DNA from: Bryobacterales bacterium
GTDB taxonomy: Bacteria; Acidobacteriota; Terriglobia; Bryobacterales; Bryobacteraceae
Reading direction: 5' to 3'
DNA: 64,000 nucleotides
NCBI GenBank assembly: GCA_003167255.1
Contig: PMTR01000194.1
Location: forward strand, 1-64,000
Shown here: one piece after another, positions 54,839-63,781 of the stretch
How positions within the stretch are numbered: position 1 is the stretch's first letter
How the letters are laid out: each line of letters opens with the position of its first letter
Notes under the pieces: generated by a model
What the model saw: the letters and a program-made list of their open reading frames with translations, nothing else
What the model was told of the DNA's origin: nothing
Database searches by the model: none
Program-made: the position numbers and the translations under genes

Positions 54839-55486
54839 TTATAGATGGGTCGCGAGCGGAGCCCGGGGCTGATGGGAGATTGCAGGAACGAAGCCAATTT
54901 CGGGGGAAGCGGTTGGAGCGGCGGGAGTTACGGGAGTGGGGCGTAGCGTGAGATCGGGGCCAAACGTGTAGATGGTGGGGCCGGGGTAAGTGAGTTCTTC
55001 TTCGGTGGCTCGGGCGGGCAATTCAGCGGAGGCGATGCGGGCTTCCTGGAGTGTCTGAATCTTGGTGAGGGATGCCTCGTAGGATTTTTCGAAGAGGGTG
55101 ATGCGGCGGTGCAGTCGCATGAAGACGGGGCTGGAGTTGTTGAAGCCTTCGCCGAGGGGGGCGCCGTCGCGGCGGGAAGCGTGGGTGGTGTTGAATTCCC
55201 AGAGGTGGGCTTCGGCGCGGAAGAGGCGGCGGAGCGACCATTCGTTGCGGATGAGGGTATCGACGTGAAAGCGCTCTTCGGGCGACTGGGGCGAAAAGCG
55301 GGTGAAGTATTCGACCTGGAGGCGGTAGAAATCGGCGCGCTCCTCGCCATAGCAGAATTGAGAATCGGCGTCGAGGCCGGATTTGAAAGCGTTCTGAGAA
55401 GACACAGCTTTGCCTTCAGGGGTGCGAGGACCCGTGGATTTCTGGGAGTTGAGGCGATTGGCGGCGATCTGACTGGGGGTTGCCAT
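54839..55486 (-). CDS. Acidobacterial hypothetical protein with [11 protein letters not shown] motif
   Basis: A 215-residue protein. The N-terminus carries [20 protein letters not shown] and SQNAFKSGL, a motif recurrent in hypothetical proteins of acidobacteria and planctomycetes, function unknown. The middle is helical and charged ([40 protein letters not shown]). The last 60 residues are Pro/Thr/Ala-rich and probably disordered. No signal peptide. AAGGAG lies 6 nt before the ATG. It is just 7 bp upstream of glmS, so the two may share a transcript. Confidence 0.7.
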
Positions 55487-55775: not shown

Positions 55776-58532
55776 TCAACGCCGCGCCAGCTTCGCCATC
55801 ACCAGCGCCGCAGCATCATCGGCTCCCGGCGGCGCGCTGCACCATTTCAGCCGTTCCGCCCAGAGCTGGCGGGCCGTGGCCTCGTTCGCCTCGGCTGCGT
55901 CGCTGTAGGATTCCGGCCGCTTATGCCCCGCTAGCGCAAGCTGCGCGGCCCGCACCGCATCGTCGTTCCCGGAGCCGGCCTTCGCGCAGAGGACGACTTC
56001 GCCGAGAATCTGCTGCAGCAACTCGTGGCTGCGCCGGAACCGTTCCGCTGAGGGCACGCCGGCCAGAGTCGGATCGAGCGCCAGAACCTTTCCGCAAATC
56101 TCGGTCTGCCTGGCTGCCGCCGCATCGCCCGGGTCCGTCCGCAGCGCCCCAGCGAAATCGTGCCGCGCCCCTGCGTAGTCGCCCATGGCGAACTCCGCAT
56201 CCCCTAGCAAGTGGTACGTGGCGCTATCGGGGTGCTCTTTCTCCGCATCGCCGCGCAGCAGCCGCGCCGCGCTTTCGGGCACGCCGTAGTCGATCAGCAT
56301 GCGCGCCACGCGCTGGCGCAGAGCCAGATCGTCCGGCAGCGCCGCGGCCGTGATCAGGAGCTCCGCCTGCGCCTGTGCGCTCCGGCCGGCTTTGGCAAGT
56401 GTCTCCGCCAGTTCCAGCCGCGTATCCAGGCGCCGCTCCGGCGTCTTCTGCGGCCACTGACCGTAGATCGCCCGCTGATAATTCCCGATGGCCTCATCGA
56501 TCTTCCCCTGCCGAACCGCAATCCTGGCCAGCCCCAGGTTCGCCGGCCCGCTTCCCGGATTCTCCTTGAGGGCTTCATTCAGGTAGATGGACGCCTCATC
56601 CAGGCTTCCCGCGTTCACCAGCGCCAACCCCAGCGCCAGCCGGTAGTCGGTTCTGCGCAAGCTGGAGAGGGCGGTCCGAAACTGCGCGATCGCCTCGTCA
56701 TTGCGCCCCTGCGATTCGAGCGCCTGCCCCGCCTGAAAGTGACCCTGCCCCCGCGCCATTCGCTCGCTGCGGTAATAGTAGCTGAGGAAACTCGCCACAA
56801 TTCCGACCGCCAGCACGGCGATCAGAAGCCTAGTTGCCAGACGCGCCAGCGTCTTTCCACTTTGCTCCTCCGACAGCTCCGGTTCCGGGTGCGGCTCCGC
56901 TCCATACGCCGCCAGGATGTCCGGAAGTGAAATCGTCCCTCGCAGTCCGCGAACGTCGTCGCGCCTCACGACCGGCAGCGCTTTCAACCCGGTCTCCGCC
57001 AGCCTGCGCATCGCCGCATCGAGCGGATGATCGCGATGCAGGTGTGGAAAATTTTCGTCGGTCAGGGTTTCCGCGGGACCCGGTTCGGGCACCAGCGCGC
57101 CGACGGGCTCCCAGGCGGGGTTCTCCTCCTCCGCCGCATCCAGTTGATCCAGGGTGAGCATTCCCCGCAGCCCACCTCCATCCACCACCGGCCACGCGCC
57201 GCGTTCCCGGTCCACCATGGCGGCTGCCTCGCGAATGGGGGTTTCCGCCTGGAGCGACGGCGCACCGGCCCGATACGCCTGTTCCACCGTCAACGGTTCT
57301 TCTCGCGCGCGGGCTCCGGCCGGCAGGCGGATGCCATCCTGATGCTGCAGCGCCTCGTAGATCGGCTCGCGCTGGAGCCGCATGGAAATGAAATAGCTGA
57401 TCAGGTTGGCAATCATCAGGGGCACGATGATGGAGTAATCGCGTGTGATCTCGAAGATCATGATTACCGAGGTCAGCGGCACGCGGATGATGCCCGCAAA
57501 CGCCGCTCCCATCCCCACCAGCGCATAGGCGCCCACGCTGCCTGTATAATCCGGCATCAGCAGGTGGGCCGACCCTCCCACCGCGCCCCCCATCATCGCG
57601 CCGATGAACAGGCTCGGGCCGAAAATGCCCCCCGCATTTCCCGAGGCGTAGCAGGTTGTGGTCGCCGCCATTTTCAGGCACACCAGCAGCGCCATGGTGC
57701 CGATCAGCATCTGGCCGTTCAGCGCCTTTCCCACATATCCGTAACCGACGCCCAGGACCGCCGGCGCGAACCATCCCAGCAGGCCCACCAGCAGCCCGCC
57801 TGCCACCGGCTGGAACCACAGCGTCCATTTCGGCATTCTCAGAAAACGCTGCCGCTGCCACAGCAGCAGCTTGACGAACGCCACCGATACCAGCCCGCCC
57901 GCCACGCCCAACACCGCGTAAAACAGGAACTCGATGGGATGCACCAGTTGATACGCCGGCACGTGGAACAGCGGTTCATCGCCCAGCAACAGGTGCAGCA
58001 CAATCCACGAAGTCGCCGAGCTGAGCACAATCGAGCCCAGTACCGGCGCGTGCAGATCTCCCATCACTTCTTCCAACGTGAAAAGCACCGCCGCGATGGG
58101 CGTGTTGAACGCCGCCGCCAGCGCCGCCGACGCCCCGATCGGCACCAGCGCCTTGACGCTCCGCTGCGAGAGTCCCAGCCGGCGACCCAGCACCGACGCC
58201 AGACCCGCCCCCACCTGCACCGACGGTCCTTCGCGCCCCAGAGCCATTCCGCTGGCCAGCGTCACCGCGCACATGGTGAATTTCCCCACCACGGTCCGCA
58301 GGCTGATGAAGCCGTCGCGCAGGAACAGCGCCGTCTTGGTTTGTGGAATCCCGCTGCCGCGCGCTTGCGGAAAATAGCGCGCCAGCATGAACCCCGTGCC
58401 CAGCGCTCCCGCCACCGGAATTAAAATGCGCCGCCACGCCGGAGCGCCGGCCGGATAGAGGCGCGCCCCCAGATTCTCGGTCAGCAGGATAAACGCCACC
58501 ACCACCAGCCCGACCGTCGCCCCGATGATCAA
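55776..58532 (-). CDS. ClC chloride channel/antiporter fused to CBS, membrane helix and TPR domain
   Basis: At least 918 residues. ClC core (about 1-390): selectivity motif RGSGIPQ (58-64), GREGPSVQVG with gating Glu E101, LFTLEEVMGD with E154/E155 at the internal-proton position (suggesting H+ antiport), and NAGGIFGPSLFIGAMMG. Two CBS domains follow (about 405-545). A further helix (567-586; LLIAVLAVGIVASFLSYYY) precedes 6-8 TPR-like repeats (595-870; FQAGQALESQGRNDEAIAQF, GDAEFAMGDYAGARHDFAGA). Start TTG 58532 truncates the first helix; the frame continues upstream through RHRHEDKILLILT to about 58601, where CTG follows GGAGG, so the real start is probably there. Confidence 0.88.
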   Translation of the reverse strand: MIIGATVGLVVVAFILLTENLGARLYPAGAPAWRRILIPVAGALGTGFMLARYFPQARGSGIPQTKTALFLRDGFISLRTVVGKFTMCAVTLASGMALGREGPSVQVGAGLASVLGRRLGLSQRSVKALVPIGASAALAAAFNTPIAAVLFTLEEVMGDLHAPVLGSIVLSSATSWIVLHLLLGDEPLFHVPAYQLVHPIEFLFYAVLGVAGGLVSVAFVKLLLWQRQRFLRMPKWTLWFQPVAGGLLVGLLGWFAPAVLGVGYGYVGKALNGQMLIGTMALLVCLKMAATTTCYASGNAGGIFGPSLFIGAMMGGAVGGSAHLLMPDYTGSVGAYALVGMGAAFAGIIRVPLTSVIMIFEITRDYSIIVPLMIANLISYFISMRLQREPIYEALQHQDGIRLPAGARAREEPLTVEQAYRAGAPSLQAETPIREAAAMVDRERGAWPVVDGGGLRGMLTLDQLDAAEEENPAWEPVGALVPEPGPAETLTDENFPHLHRDHPLDAAMRRLAETGLKALPVVRRDDVRGLRGTISLPDILAAYGAEPHPEPELSEEQSGKTLARLATRLLIAVLAVGIVASFLSYYYRSERMARGQGHFQAGQALESQGRNDEAIAQFRTALSSLRRTDYRLALGLALVNAGSLDEASIYLNEALKENPGSGPANLGLARIAVRQGKIDEAIGNYQRAIYGQWPQKTPERRLDTRLELAETLAKAGRSAQAQAELLITAAALPDDLALRQRVARMLIDYGVPESAARLLRGDAEKEHPDSATYHLLGDAEFAMGDYAGARHDFAGALRTDPGDAAAARQTEICGKVLALDPTLAGVPSAERFRRSHELLQQILGEVVLCAKAGSGNDDAVRAAQLALAGHKRPESYSDAAEANEATARQLWAERLKWCSAPPGADDAAALVMAKLARR

Positions 58533-58570
58533 CGTCAGGATCAGCAGGATCTTGTCTTCGTGGCGGTGTC

Positions 58571-58750
58571 TTAGGTCGGCAGAAGCGCTGGTTGTGTCCA
58601 GAAATCCTCCGTTACGTTCAATGATAGGACGACTGGCGCCCCAGTACGGGACGGCTGCCTGGCTGGCTTTCGCACGACGATGCGGAACGTGCCCAACGGC
58701 ACGACCTCTTCTCCGGGCTGCACACGGAAATCCTTTGAATTGATTTTCAT
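58571..58750 (-). pseudogene. Short frame with a PPK2-like N-terminus (possible remnant)
   Basis: A 59-residue frame starting MKINSKDFRVQPGEEVVPLG. These first residues resemble the opening of polyphosphate kinase 2 proteins (NSKDFRV-x-PG-x-x-V). The remainder (TFRIVVRKPARQPSRT, APVVLSLNVTEDFWTQPALL) matches nothing I know, so the body of the gene seems lost. It could equally be an unrelated small gene. It overlaps the upstream extension of the ClC gene by about 30 bp. The spacer 58751-58871 shows nothing further. Confidence 0.3.
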
Positions 58751-58871: not shown

Positions 58872-59765
58872 TCAGTTCTTTTTTGCACTCAGCGCTTCGA
58901 AGCCGGAAATGACGTCGAACAGTTCCTCGTCGATGCCATTCTGGCGCAAACGATGAAATGTCCTGTTGAGGTCCTCCAGCAATTCGTTGATGTTCTTGTC
59001 GGCGCGTTGCATCGCCGCCAGGCGGCTCGCGTTCTCGCTGGCGAGGGATTCGGCGCACGCCCGGAAGAGCGACACGAAAAGATATTCGCGGATAAGCGCC
59101 CGCAAGGTCGCGATGCCGTCACCCATGATCTCGGGCAAGGTTCCCGTCGGCCAGGGAAGTTCGGCCAGCTTGCGTCGCCAGTTTTCGTCCAGCGGTAGCA
59201 ATCGCTGAGTGACGGGCGCATAAACCGCTCCGGACGTGGGGCGGTTGTAGAAGAGGTGGAGTTCGGTGACTTCACCGTGGCGTTGTCGCGCCTCGCTCTC
59301 CACCAGAATTTGCCCGACGAGCGGGGTGATGGCCTTGACGGAATTCGGCACCGTGAAGAGCCCCCTTAGCGGCAGGCCCGCGTCCGCCAAGCGCTCATGG
59401 ACGCGCTCACCGACGGCCCAGACCTCGGCTTTGGCCGGTAGAGTCGCCAGCGTCTTGACCGCAAAATCGGCCACCACATCGTTAAACTGGCCCACCAGTC
59501 CCTGGTCTGAACCGAACACGATCGCGCCAATCGCACGGGCAACTGTTCTTCCTCCCTGTTCTGCAATCAACGGCGCCGACGCGCTTTCCCGGAAGCATGC
59601 GCCCAACCCCAGTTCCACTGTGCGATAGTAGTCGGCCAACGCGCTCACCGATTTCTCATATTGTCCGATGCTGGAGGCGGCAACTGCCTTCATCGTGCGG
59701 ACGACGGATTGGAGATCCCCCGCTCCGCCGATTTTTCGGCGCAGGCTCGCCGTAGTGTTGCTCAT
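58872..59765 (-). CDS. atpG: N-type ATP synthase gamma subunit
   Basis: A 297-residue central-stalk subunit of F1. The N-terminal helix [20 protein letters not shown] and C-terminal helix [37 protein letters not shown] are the coiled coil that rotates inside alpha3beta3. The middle domain is divergent from housekeeping gamma ([20 protein letters not shown] is recognisable). It is the last gene of the operon (order Q-R-B-E-F-A-G), as in described N-ATPase operons. Its start overlaps the alpha stop by 4 nt (ATGA). Confidence 0.9.
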
Positions 59766-61405
59766 GACTTCTCCTCGGGTTTAGGCTTAGGCTTGACCTC
59801 CGCTTTGTCTTCAGGCTTGGCCTTGGGCTTGGGCTTGACCTCCGCTTTGTCTTGAGGCTTGGCCTTGGGTTCGGTCTTGGGCTGGAAGGAAGCAAGCGAT
59901 TTGCGCGCGATTTCGACAATCGCTTTGCGGTCCTCGTCGCTGAGTTTGTCGGCGGTATCCAATCGCCCGCGCACGTCCGCTGGGATATCGGCCGCCGCCT
60001 TGAGTAGGGCGTGCTCGGCGTCCGCCATCTGGTCGAGAGGCACGCGGTCGAAAAGTTCTGCGGTCAATGCCAGCAGCACGGCGATTTGCTCAGGCACGGA
60101 TACCGGGGCGAATTCCGGCTGTTTCAGGCAGGCGCGGATTCGCCGCCCGTGTTCGATAGTCTTGCGAGTGCCTTCATCCAGGCGGGCTCCGAACCGGGAA
60201 AAGGTTTCGAGCTCCTCAAACTGCGCGTAGGCTAGCTTGAGATCGCCCGCCACCGCACGGTAGGCCGCGCGTTGCGCCTTACCGCCTACGCGCGAAACGG
60301 ATCTTCCGACATCGACCGCGGGTAGCACGCCCAATTCGAATAGCGACGGCGAGAGGTAGATCTGCCCATCCGTGATGGAAATCAAATTGGTCGGAATATA
60401 GGCGGAGATGTCCTGCGCTTCGGTTTCGATTATAGGCAGCGCGGTGAGCGAACCGCCGCCGAGTTCCTGCCGCAAATGCGTCGCACGTTCGAGCAGCCGC
60501 GAGTGGATATAGAAGATGTCGCCGGGAAACGCTTCGCGACCGGGCGGGCGGCGCAGCAAGAGAGAGAGTTCGCGGTAGGCGCGCGCGTGATGGGTGAGGT
60601 CGTCGTAAACAATCAGCACATCTCGGGCCGCCTCCATGAAAGACTCTGCGATGCTGGTCGCGGCATAAGGAGCAATGTAAGCGAGGCCCGGCGGGTCGTT
60701 GCCTTCGCTAACGACGATGACGGTGTAATCCATCGCGCCCTTTTCCCGTAAGGTCGCCACGGCCTTGGCGACGGCGGACGCGCGCTGCCCGATGGCACAA
60801 TAAACGCACAGCACATCTTGGTCGCGCTGGTTGAGGATGGTGTCGATCGCGATGGCGGTCTTGCCTGTCTGGCGGTCGCCGAGAATCAACTCGCGCTGGC
60901 CGCGTCCAACGGGAATGAGCGCATCAATGACTTTTAGGCCGGTCTGGAGGGGCACAGTGACGGGCGCCCGGTCCATGATGGGCGGGGCGGGGCGTTCGAC
61001 GGGCAGGCGCTTGCCAGAGGCCACCGAACCGTTGCCATCGAGTGGCCGACCGAGCGGGTCGATGACGCGCCCCAGCAGTCCATCGCCAACGGCCACGTCC
61101 ATGACGCGGCCTGTGCGCTGGACTTCATCTCCCGCATGGAGATGCCAGTATTCGCCAAGCAGAACGACGCCAATTTCGTTCTCATCCACGTTGAACGCAA
61201 TGCCGAGCACGTCACCGGGAAACGTTACCAATTCATCAAAGCCCACGCCGGGGAGACCCGACACCTTGGCGATGCCGGTAGCGACACTGGTGATCGTGCC
61301 CACCTCCCGTGGCGTCATTTCCGGCGTGAATGCTTCTCGCACTTGGCTTATTCCAGCAAACACGCCGTCGAAAAGGTTCTGGAGGCTTTCAGGTTCCATG
61401 TTCAT
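59762..61405 (-). CDS. atpA: N-type ATP synthase alpha subunit with Lys/Pro/Glu-rich tail
   Basis: A 547-residue F1 alpha subunit (nucleotide-binding, non-catalytic). Walker A GDRQTGKT, the [12 protein letters not shown] segment, Walker [41 protein letters not shown], and the Arg finger region [12 protein letters not shown] are intact. After about residue 508 the protein adds a 38-residue tail of repeats ([35 protein letters not shown]), absent from ordinary alpha subunits. The DNA encoding it (about 59772-59875) is a direct repeat. Start overlaps the atpF stop by 4 nt. Confidence 0.93.
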
Positions 61406-62463
61406 TGACTCTTTGCTTCTGGCTTTGGTTCTTCAGGTTTAGGCTCAGTCTTGGCTTCGGGTTCAGACGTGGCCTTGGCCTCAGGCTTAGGCGCAGCCTT
61501 GGCTTCGAGTTTGGCCTTGGCCTTAGCTTCGGGTTCGGGCTCCGCTTTGGCTTTGGCTTCGGGTTTAGGCCCGGCTTTGGCTTCGGGTTCAGGCTCCACC
61601 TTGGCTTCGGGTTCAGGCTCGGCTTTGGCCTCAGGTTTAGGCTCGGCCTTGGTTTCAGGTTCAGCCTCGGCCGCGGGCTTCGGCGCGGCCTTGGCTTCAG
61701 GTTTGTCCTTCTCTTTCAGAAGTTCATCGACGCCCTTTTCCATCGACGCCAGATAATCCGCGATGCTCCACGCCACCTTTTGCCCATTCGTGGTGAGTTC
61801 AATGCCGCTGATCAGGTCTGGCGCGGTCTCGAACCGGACGCGAATTTCAGCCGAGAACGTTTCGTTGAGCGCATTTTGTATGGCCGCGCGTTGCTCCGCA
61901 GGCACGTCAAACGTGCTGCGCACAACCGCAGGGTCGGAGGCTGTCTTAAGGGCCGCGCCGAGGCCTTCTTTCGCCTTGCCGTCCATCTCTCGCAAGCGGC
62001 GAGTGAACACCTCGCCCAGGCGTTCTTCCAGACTCGTCGTGGCGAGATCCGTCAGCGCCTTTCGAGCGATCGCAAACACTTCCTTCTGGGCCCGGCGGCT
62101 GATGGCTTGATTTAGATTATGGGCGTCGTTTCTCAGCGTTTCCTGTCGCTTGGCACTCAAGGCGTCGGCCGCCTTCCGCGCTTCGTCAAGGAGCCGCTGC
62201 CGTTCGGCCCGCGCCTCGTCTGTCGCCTTACTCAAGAGGGCGGCGCGCTGTTGGTCAAACTCCGCGTTCTTGTTCTGGAACTCGTCGTGCTCCTTTTCAG
62301 CTTCGGCCTTTTTCGCGTCTGCGTTCGAGAGCTCCGCGGCGATCCGCTTTTCCCGCTCATCAATTGCGTGGAGGATAGGCTTGTAAAGAAAGCGCCTCAT
62401 TAACCACACCAGGATGAGGAAGTTGAGCGCCTGCGCACCGACGGTGAACCAATCGATAAGCAT
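61402..62463 (-). CDS. atpF: N-type ATP synthase B subunit with delta-like part and long KPEA tail
   Basis: A 353-residue subunit. One N-terminal membrane helix ([20 protein letters not shown]), a long charged helix (30-160), then a delta-like domain at about 150-245 ([40 protein letters not shown]). N-ATPase operons lack a separate delta gene, and their long B subunits supply it. From about residue 255 the last 100 residues are low-complexity repeats of the kind [26 protein letters not shown]. At DNA level these are tandem repeats of about 12-24 bp at 61410-61700. Overlaps atpA by 4 nt. Confidence 0.87.
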
Positions 62464-62466
62464 GGG

Positions 62467-62748
62467 TTACTTTCCCGCGGTCTGGGCGATGACGTGGTTC
62501 CAGAACGGATTGGCGAAAATGAGAATCATCGAGACCACGAAACAGTAGATAGCGATGGACTCGATCATCGCCAGGCCCACGAACAAGGTCCGGGTGATGG
62601 TAGCAGAGGCATCAGGCTGCTGGGCCAGCGAAGTCAGCGCCGTTGCGACCGCCCTCCCTTCCGCCAGCGCTGGCCCTATGGAGCCCAAACTGATGGTGAT
62701 GCCGGCGATGACAATTGATGCCACCGCGATAATAGTCATGTTGTCCAC
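62467..62748 (-). CDS. atpE: N-type ATP synthase c subunit, probable Na+ site
   Basis: A 93-residue, two-helix proteolipid. Helix 1 ends GSIGPALAEGRAVATAL with E30; helix 2 carries FVGLAMIESIAIYCFVVSMI with E63, S64 and Y68. Offset by two residues these match the Na+-binding positions Q32, E65, S66 and Y70 of the Ilyobacter c ring; position 32 is Glu here, as in N-type ATPases, and the T67 position is Ile. Most sodium ligands are kept, so Na+ coupling is probable but not certain. It is 3 bp upstream of atpF. Confidence 0.92.
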   Translation of the reverse strand: MDNMTIIAVASIVIAGITISLGSIGPALAEGRAVATALTSLAQQPDASATITRTLFVGLAMIESIAIYCFVVSMILIFANPFWNHVIAQTAGK

Positions 62749-62772
62749 AGTGTCTCCTTTTGTTGTCGTAGT

Positions 62773-63474
62773 TCATGCTGGAACGGTTTGCATGGGTTCA
62801 GGCTTGGGCTTACGGACCCTCGTTGCGGCCGCGATGTACACCGCCGCCAGGATGCTGAAGATGTACGCCTGCACCATGCCGGTGAGCAGGCCGAGCACCG
62901 TCATAATGATCGGGAAGATGAAGGGCGTAATAGTGAGTAGGATGCCAATAATCATCGCCCCGCTCATCATATTGCCGAACAGACGGACGGCCAGGGCCAG
63001 CGTGCGCGACAGTTCGCTGATGATGTTAAATGGCACCATGATGAACGTCGGCTTCGTATAGGACTTGAGGTAGTTGCGCACCCCCTGCTCCTCGATGCCA
63101 AAGAACGGCACTGCGACAAATACGCACAGCGCGAGCGCGGCCGTGGTCGAGAGCGAAGCAGTCGGCGGCTCGTAGCCGGGAATCACGGTGCAGAGGCTGG
63201 CTGTAGCGACAAACAGGAAGAGCGTGCCCAGGAAGCCGAGATATTTCTGCGGCTGACTCAGGCCGACCTCTTCAATCTGCTTCGAGATGCCGGTGACTAA
63301 GATTTCCAGAAGGTTCTGCCAGCGGGAACGTTCCAGGCCGGTGGAGAGTTTGCGCGTGATGAGTCTTGAGCCGCCGGCCAGCACGAGCATCAGTGCCCAC
63401 GTGAACGCAATGGTGGCGTTCAGTTTGAAAACTCCGTATTGCCAGAAAATCATCTGATCGGGACTAAGGTGCAT
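62773..63474 (-). CDS. atpB: N-type ATP synthase a subunit
   Basis: A 233-residue membrane subunit forming the ion half-channels. The essential Arg is in SELSRTLALAVRLFGNMMSG (helix 4/5). NLLEILVTGISKQIEEVG and GFLGTLFLFVATASLCTVIP are typical for N-type a subunits. The C-terminal helix VQAYIFSILAAVYIAAAT ends in a charged tail (RVRKPKPEPMQ). It overlaps atpR by 11 bp and is followed by atpE after 24 bp, a gap without a clear structure. Confidence 0.93.
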   Translation of the reverse strand: MHLSPDQMIFWQYGVFKLNATIAFTWALMLVLAGGSRLITRKLSTGLERSRWQNLLEILVTGISKQIEEVGLSQPQKYLGFLGTLFLFVATASLCTVIPGYEPPTASLSTTAALALCVFVAVPFFGIEEQGVRNYLKSYTKPTFIMVPFNIISELSRTLALAVRLFGNMMSGAMIIGILLTITPFIFPIIMTVLGLLTGMVQAYIFSILAAVYIAAATRVRKPKPEPMQTVPA

Positions 63475-63781
63475 GGCTGGCCGCCTGTGCCGGGAAACTT
63501 GGCTTCTCTGCCACCCGGGTGAGCCGCGTCACAATAACGCGTGCCAGGACAAATGCAAGGAGGCACACCAGCAGGCTCTCCCAATGGCCGCGTGCGATGA
63601 AATAGAAGCCAACCAGTGCAATGCTCGTTCGCAGCAACAGGCTGCTAACGAACCAAAGCGCCGGCTGCTTGGATGAGAAGCCTTTGCGAACTGTCCACCA
63701 AAGGCCACCGAAGAATATTGCGCCGATCAACAGGCCCGTCACCAAGGCCAGCACCAGACGCAGAGCGTCAGTCATCGTCAT
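63464..63781 (-). CDS. atpR: AtpR, N-ATPase-specific membrane subunit
   Basis: A 105-residue protein with three membrane helices (ALRLVLALVTGLLIGAIFFG; ALWFVSSLLLRTSIALVGFY; SLLVCLLAFVLARVIVTRL). Position between atpQ and atpB and the short three-helix form identify it as AtpR, found only in N-type ATPase operons and thought to help assemble or stabilise the c ring. Its Arg residues (LLLRTSIAL, LARVIV) lie inside helices, as is usual for this subunit. It overlaps both neighbours (14 bp with atpQ, 11 bp with atpB). Confidence 0.88.
   Translation of the reverse strand: MTMTDALRLVLALVTGLLIGAIFFGGLWWTVRKGFSSKQPALWFVSSLLLRTSIALVGFYFIARGHWESLLVCLLAFVLARVIVTRLTRVAEKPSFPAQAASHAP

Follow-up and report, generated by a model that had tools for sequence, protein, structure and literature searches.

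The window analysed here is a stretch of 64,000 nucleotides (positions 1 to 64,000 of contig PMTR01000194.1) from a member of the Bryobacterales, a soil bacterium. Near its end a single minus-strand frame encodes, in order, a ClC domain, a CBS pair, one membrane helix, TPR repeats and a C-terminal module, with the genes of an alternate F1F0 ATPase lying upstream and ending about 270 bp before it. The part made up of the membrane helix, the repeats and the terminal module is called TM-TPR below. Residues are numbered on a reading of 941 amino acids; the numbers of a preliminary description of this DNA are those given here minus 23. The features are as follows.

55776..58601, minus strand: whole gene, ClC-CBS-TM-TPR fusion (941 aa from CTG 58601, 918 aa from TTG 58532; from homologues)
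58606..58610, minus strand: GGAGG, probable ribosome-binding site of the CTG start (from the sequence)
57321..58601, minus strand: ClC membrane domain of antiporter type, residues 1-427 (Pfam Voltage_CLC, 3e-94; phmmer to CLC-ec1; model)
58230..58232, minus strand: predicted external gating glutamate E124 (E101 in the earlier numbering; CLC-ec1 E148; by alignment)
58068..58070, minus strand: predicted internal proton glutamate E178 (E155 in the earlier numbering; CLC-ec1 E203; by alignment)
56901..57299, minus strand: cytoplasmic CBS pair, residues ~435-567 (Pfam CBS, 4.8e-12, two stretches; model against 3org)
56784..56840, minus strand: additional membrane helix, residues 588-606, inside a predicted continuous helix 578-630 (hydropathy 2.33; AlphaFold)
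56076..56771, minus strand: TPR superhelix, probably extracytoplasmic, residues ~611-842 (Pfam TPR; AlphaFold pLDDT 91; TPR matches in the PDB, Z ~17)
55779..56075, minus strand: C-terminal helical module with two invariant cysteines, residues ~843-941 (alignment; AlphaFold)
55986..55988, minus strand: invariant Cys 872 (46 of 46 aligned proteins)
55839..55841, minus strand: invariant Cys 921 (46 of 46 aligned proteins)
58872-63781, minus strand: alternate F1F0 ATPase of the N-ATPase type, with TIGR03165-type subunit 2 and subunits A, B, alpha and gamma (NCBIfam)

The gene had been described as starting at position 58532, from which a TTG-started frame runs to a stop at 55776 on the minus strand. 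No ATG, GTG or TTG occurs between the upstream stop and 58532. The start is more probably CTG 58601, because TTG 58532 falls inside helix B, the first membrane helix of ClC. The GGAGG upstream of the CTG and the N-terminus that this start yields, which resembles that of the nearest relative (locus L002), make a protein of 941 rather than 918 residues likely.

The ClC domain scores 316 bits for Voltage_CLC (PF00654), whose cut-off is 24.8 (3e-94). Of the glutamates that the preliminary description took as marks of antiport (E101 and E154/E155 in its numbering), E101 and E155 do align with E148 and E203 of CLC-ec1, and each of the 34 partnered ClCs in the alignment has a glutamate at both the external and the internal position. 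Since both proton glutamates mark antiporters as opposed to channels, the ClC part is predicted to be of the H+/Cl- antiporter type. In most ClCs that have a TPR gene upstream the GREGP motif is changed to GPEDP, with the glutamate retained, and GSGIP to GSGVN or GSGIV; the ClC genes concerned are those of L017, L029, L062-L066, L068-L073 and L076. The CBS pair scores 46.5 bits in two stretches C-terminal to the membrane domain. Among the partnered ClCs, those of L016 and L029 have no CBS match over the cut-off and the frame of L067 stops shortly past the ClC domain. In these three CBS is thus reduced or undetectable while the TPR partner is retained, so nucleotide sensing cannot be essential for pairing.

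One hydrophobic segment follows the CBS pair. It covers 19 residues (588-606, or 565-583 in the earlier numbering, where a membrane helix had been placed at 567-586) and has a mean hydropathy of 2.33. Many stretches beyond it match Pfam TPR families over the cut-off, and together with the Voltage_CLC and CBS matches this confirms the fusion of ClC, CBS, helix and TPR that had been read from the letters. TPR_21 (PF09976, YfgM-type) spans the helix weakly, scoring 27.3 and 25.7 bits where the cut-off is 25.5, and is matched at E 0.001 in only 4 of 15 TM-TPR members. Family and fold searches run on the whole of residues 588-941 returned matches of TPR type only.

The full-length AlphaFold model (25 sequences) has a mean pLDDT of 85.7 and a pTM of 0.57. 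It shows the ClC fold, with Z ~51 against CLC-ec1, and the CLC-plus-CBS structure 3org (CmCLC) aligns to it along residues 12-571. Over the C-terminal part, whose structure prediction the preliminary description had proposed, this model has a single continuous helix (578-630) containing the membrane segment. Residues 588-941 modelled alone form a TPR superhelix with a pLDDT of 91.1 and a pTM of 0.80, and match consensus TPR structures in the PDB at Z ~17. LapB and PilF are among the fold matches of the TPR part; the ClC chains matched in the PDB aligned only to the ClC and CBS part. The linker between CBS and the helix (569-583) is of low confidence, so the model does not fix where the TPRs lie.

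C872 and C921 of the terminal module are invariant across an alignment of 46 TM-TPR proteins, both fused and free-standing, at pairwise identities down to 17%, and they are frequently the sole cysteines C-terminal to the helix. The C-terminus of ClC-CBS proteins is cytoplasmic in known ClC structures, and one further helix would therefore put the TPRs on the outside. The TPR domain is thus probably extracytoplasmic (periplasmic), as had been proposed before, and the two invariant cysteines, which probably form a disulphide there, are in keeping with this, as are the Cys-rich N-termini of some separate partners. The separate partners of L017, L063 and L067 have an N-terminal Cys-rich segment of CxxC type ahead of the membrane helix, which would fit a cytoplasmic location of that end; these segments are possibly cytoplasmic zinc ribbons.

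To find relatives, one genome per species was scanned, which gave 29 related loci. The fusion itself, which it had been proposed to seek across genomes, recurs in 11 loci on other Acidobacteriota contigs (L002-L010, L014 and L016, with L008 and L010 truncated by contig ends) and in five further genomes, one of these five being a contig already counted in the 11. Elsewhere the halves are neighbouring genes. In L011 and L012 ClC is encoded first and a separate TM-TPR gene lies downstream, its start sharing ATGA with the ClC stop; L017 and L029 have the reverse order, and there the TM-TPR gene overlaps the start of ClC. Split pairs in other Acidobacteriota mostly have the TM-TPR gene upstream of ClC, often with overlapping stop and start codons. 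In the stand-alone set, 13 of 29 tabulated split junctions show stop/start overlap (one of the 13 relies on TTG), and another 13 have an ATG at most 42 nt downstream, mostly at most 13 nt. The architecture is far beyond chance, because it recurs in many contigs and its halves also occur as neighbour genes.

A TM-TPR profile built from alignment A1 was searched in 396 Acidobacteriota genomes. It gave 46 strong matches (at least 129 bits) in 45 genomes; below these came a gap in score and then partial, TPR-only matches at 111 bits or less. In all 45 genomes a strong match is fused to or directly beside a ClC gene (for 30 the loci were read, G309 was covered through locus L077 and 14 pairings come from coordinates). 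The sole TM-TPR match away from ClC belongs to the genome of the window itself and is a partial duplicate. At the threshold applied, 232 of the 396 genomes have a ClC, most ClCs having no partner, and no genome among the 396 has the partner without a ClC. The pairing is therefore a dedicated association at the genomic level, and the TM-TPR part, besides its fused form, is a stand-alone ClC companion family in Acidobacteriota, which the preliminary description had missed. No third gene common to the split loci was found among the flanks of the families sampled, and the recurring homologies among flanking genes are confined to close relatives. In three other phyla (297, 241 and 77 genomes) the profile found nothing at 1e-30, a weak result that had no positive control.

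In a ClC tree of 46 rows, made by a quick method, the partnered ClCs and five unpartnered rows (L013, L015 and L018-L020) form one group of 39 rows (support 94, not starred), with distant ClCs of other phyla outside. The fusion lies within one starred group of 19 rows, alongside two split loci with the ClC gene first (L011, L012) and two that lack a partner (L013, L015). The draft genomes of the five unpartnered loci gave no TM-TPR match despite having a ClC, so losses of the partner are likely and it appears dispensable in some lineages. Distances among the ClCs correlate with those among the TPR parts (r = 0.76), a confounded figure which common species history alone could give.

The organism's own genome has one ClC only; a second was looked for and none was found. 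The partial duplicate spans 956 bp at 94% identity to the window gene (G000:C177:80391-81346; L061:2392-3347), with a frame of 376 aa that holds the end of the second CBS domain, the helix and the TPRs without the final cysteine module. It directly follows a gene for a Pal-like lipoprotein, with a two-component pair beyond. A Pal-like gene also adjoins the fusion gene in L002, L003 and L007. In L002 the complete fusion gene follows the orthologous pal; the pal-adjacent site is therefore probably the older one, and the copy in the window has probably been relocated or duplicated. The alternate F1F0 ATPase was considered as part of a module with the ClC-TPR gene and rejected, as the flanks of the relatives examined hold no homologues of its subunits. 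Downstream of the fusion gene lies a frame of 215 aa (54839-55486, minus strand) without an NCBIfam or Pfam match.

Since the same domain elsewhere is a separate gene always beside ClC, TM-TPR looks like a dedicated accessory subunit. On balance we favour, with some reserve, an extracytoplasmic subunit of an H+/Cl- antiporter, fused here and separate elsewhere, with its action at the periplasmic side. The ClC domain is expected to form a dimer that exchanges Cl- for H+ between the two sides of the inner membrane, and the CBS pair to lie in the cytoplasm. From there helix 588-606 would take the chain through the membrane once and continue as a rod into the periplasm, where the rod would carry the TPR superhelix, closed by the helical module with its probably disulphide-bonded cysteine pair. 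Because TM-TPR is a separate protein beside ClC in related bacteria, contact between the two is likely to be functional and old, and the fusion would fix them at 1:1. The TPR unit would most likely lie above the ClC dimer on its periplasmic face, or close to that face, stabilising or gating the antiporter. The more specific proposal, that TM-TPR is a single-pass beta-subunit of bacterial ClC, its periplasmic TPR domain covering or gating the antiporter, and that extracytoplasmic regulation of ClC arose independently in bacteria and animals, is put forward tentatively, at a little below an even chance.

The best surviving alternative, which we consider unlikely, is that the TPR domain serves as an anchor or recruiting arm, bringing another envelope protein, for instance a Pal-like lipoprotein, to ClC without touching the antiporter itself. 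TPRs usually bind other proteins, and the sequence and fold matches include the envelope TPR proteins PilF/PilW, LbcA and LapB. A Pal-like gene adjoining the fusion in L002, L003 and L007, and the partial copy in the organism's own genome, also fits a recruiting arm, but that neighbourhood is confined to a few close relatives, and the split loci sampled share no third gene.

Poorer still are the prospects of TM-TPR as an assembly or quality-control chaperone, acting in the biogenesis of ClC and not in the mature antiporter. Periplasmic TPR proteins with a membrane anchor, of the TPR_21/YfgM type, are linked to secretion and folding, a TPR_21 match lies weakly across the helix, and the gene overlaps are compatible with co-translational assembly. 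However, a chaperone permanently fused to its own client would be unusual, and TPR_21 is matched by so few members (the 4 of 15 noted above).

A cytoplasmic TPR domain, with the hydrophobic segment as a re-entrant or peripheral helix and the TPRs and CBS pair together forming a cytoplasmic regulator, is very improbable. The linker and helix are of lower confidence in the full-length model, and in the fused forms the charges flanking the helix are balanced, clearly favouring neither orientation. Yet a hydrophobic helix precedes the TPRs in 46 of 46 proteins, with hydropathy of 1.9-3.0 across 19 residues, the separate partners are laid out like single-pass anchored proteins, and two invariant cysteines, frequently with no other cysteine past the helix, suit an oxidising compartment.

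An artefact of sequencing or assembly that merged two neighbouring genes, for which the separate and adjacent parts in some relatives might speak, can be dismissed almost entirely: a frame error or mis-assembly is ruled out by the recurrence of the fusion in many contigs and, for most split pairs, by their reversed order, since no frame error converts TPR-first genes into a fusion. The preliminary description had raised the prospect of two genes in other strains joined here by a frame error; split genes do exist, but they are real paired genes and the fusion recurs, so the frame error falls away.

ClC, CBS and TPR domains are individually known. No paper describing an accessory subunit of a bacterial ClC was found among the open-access papers searched, nor one on a ClC-TPR protein; neither the dedicated partner family of Acidobacteriota nor its fusion turned up there. 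As the partner occurs both fused and separate, these proteins offer a natural test set for the effect of an extracytoplasmic subunit on a Cl-/H+ antiporter.

The window protein resembles CLC-ec1 (ClcA) in its membrane fold (Z ~51), its GSGIP and GREGP motifs and both glutamates, and CmCLC (3org) in having a CBS pair after the membrane domain. It departs from both beyond CBS, where a membrane helix leads to a TPR superhelix and then to a C-terminal module carrying two conserved cysteines. YfgM and LapB are TPR proteins with a membrane anchor. TM-TPR shares the superhelix with these and with PilF/PilW, the anchor with YfgM and LapB, and LapB and PilF appear among its fold matches, but it pairs exclusively with ClC, adds the cysteine-pair module and may be fused to the transporter.

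The closest parallel in mode of working may lie with animal ClC proteins, whose accessory subunits include GlialCAM and barttin. OSTM1 covers the luminal face of CLC-7 with a disulphide-bonded helical domain (PMC7440919), and TMEM9 is a beta-subunit for ClC-3, ClC-4 and ClC-5 (PMC12403049). The parallel with OSTM1 and TMEM9 concerns a possible way of working, and membership of their families is not claimed. OSTM1 was absent among the matches listed for the TM-TPR domain, which matched TPR families and folds. TM-TPR also differs from the eukaryotic beta-subunits in being bacterial and often fused, with no homology found, and from OSTM1 in having a TPR domain where OSTM1 has two three-helix bundles with five disulphides. 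Like OSTM1, it probably places a disulphide-containing helical domain on the non-cytoplasmic side, and like OSTM1, TMEM9, GlialCAM and barttin it is, at the genomic level, a membrane-anchored accessory dedicated to a ClC. If the reading proposed here is true, regulation of ClC by extracytoplasmic subunits evolved separately in bacteria and animals.
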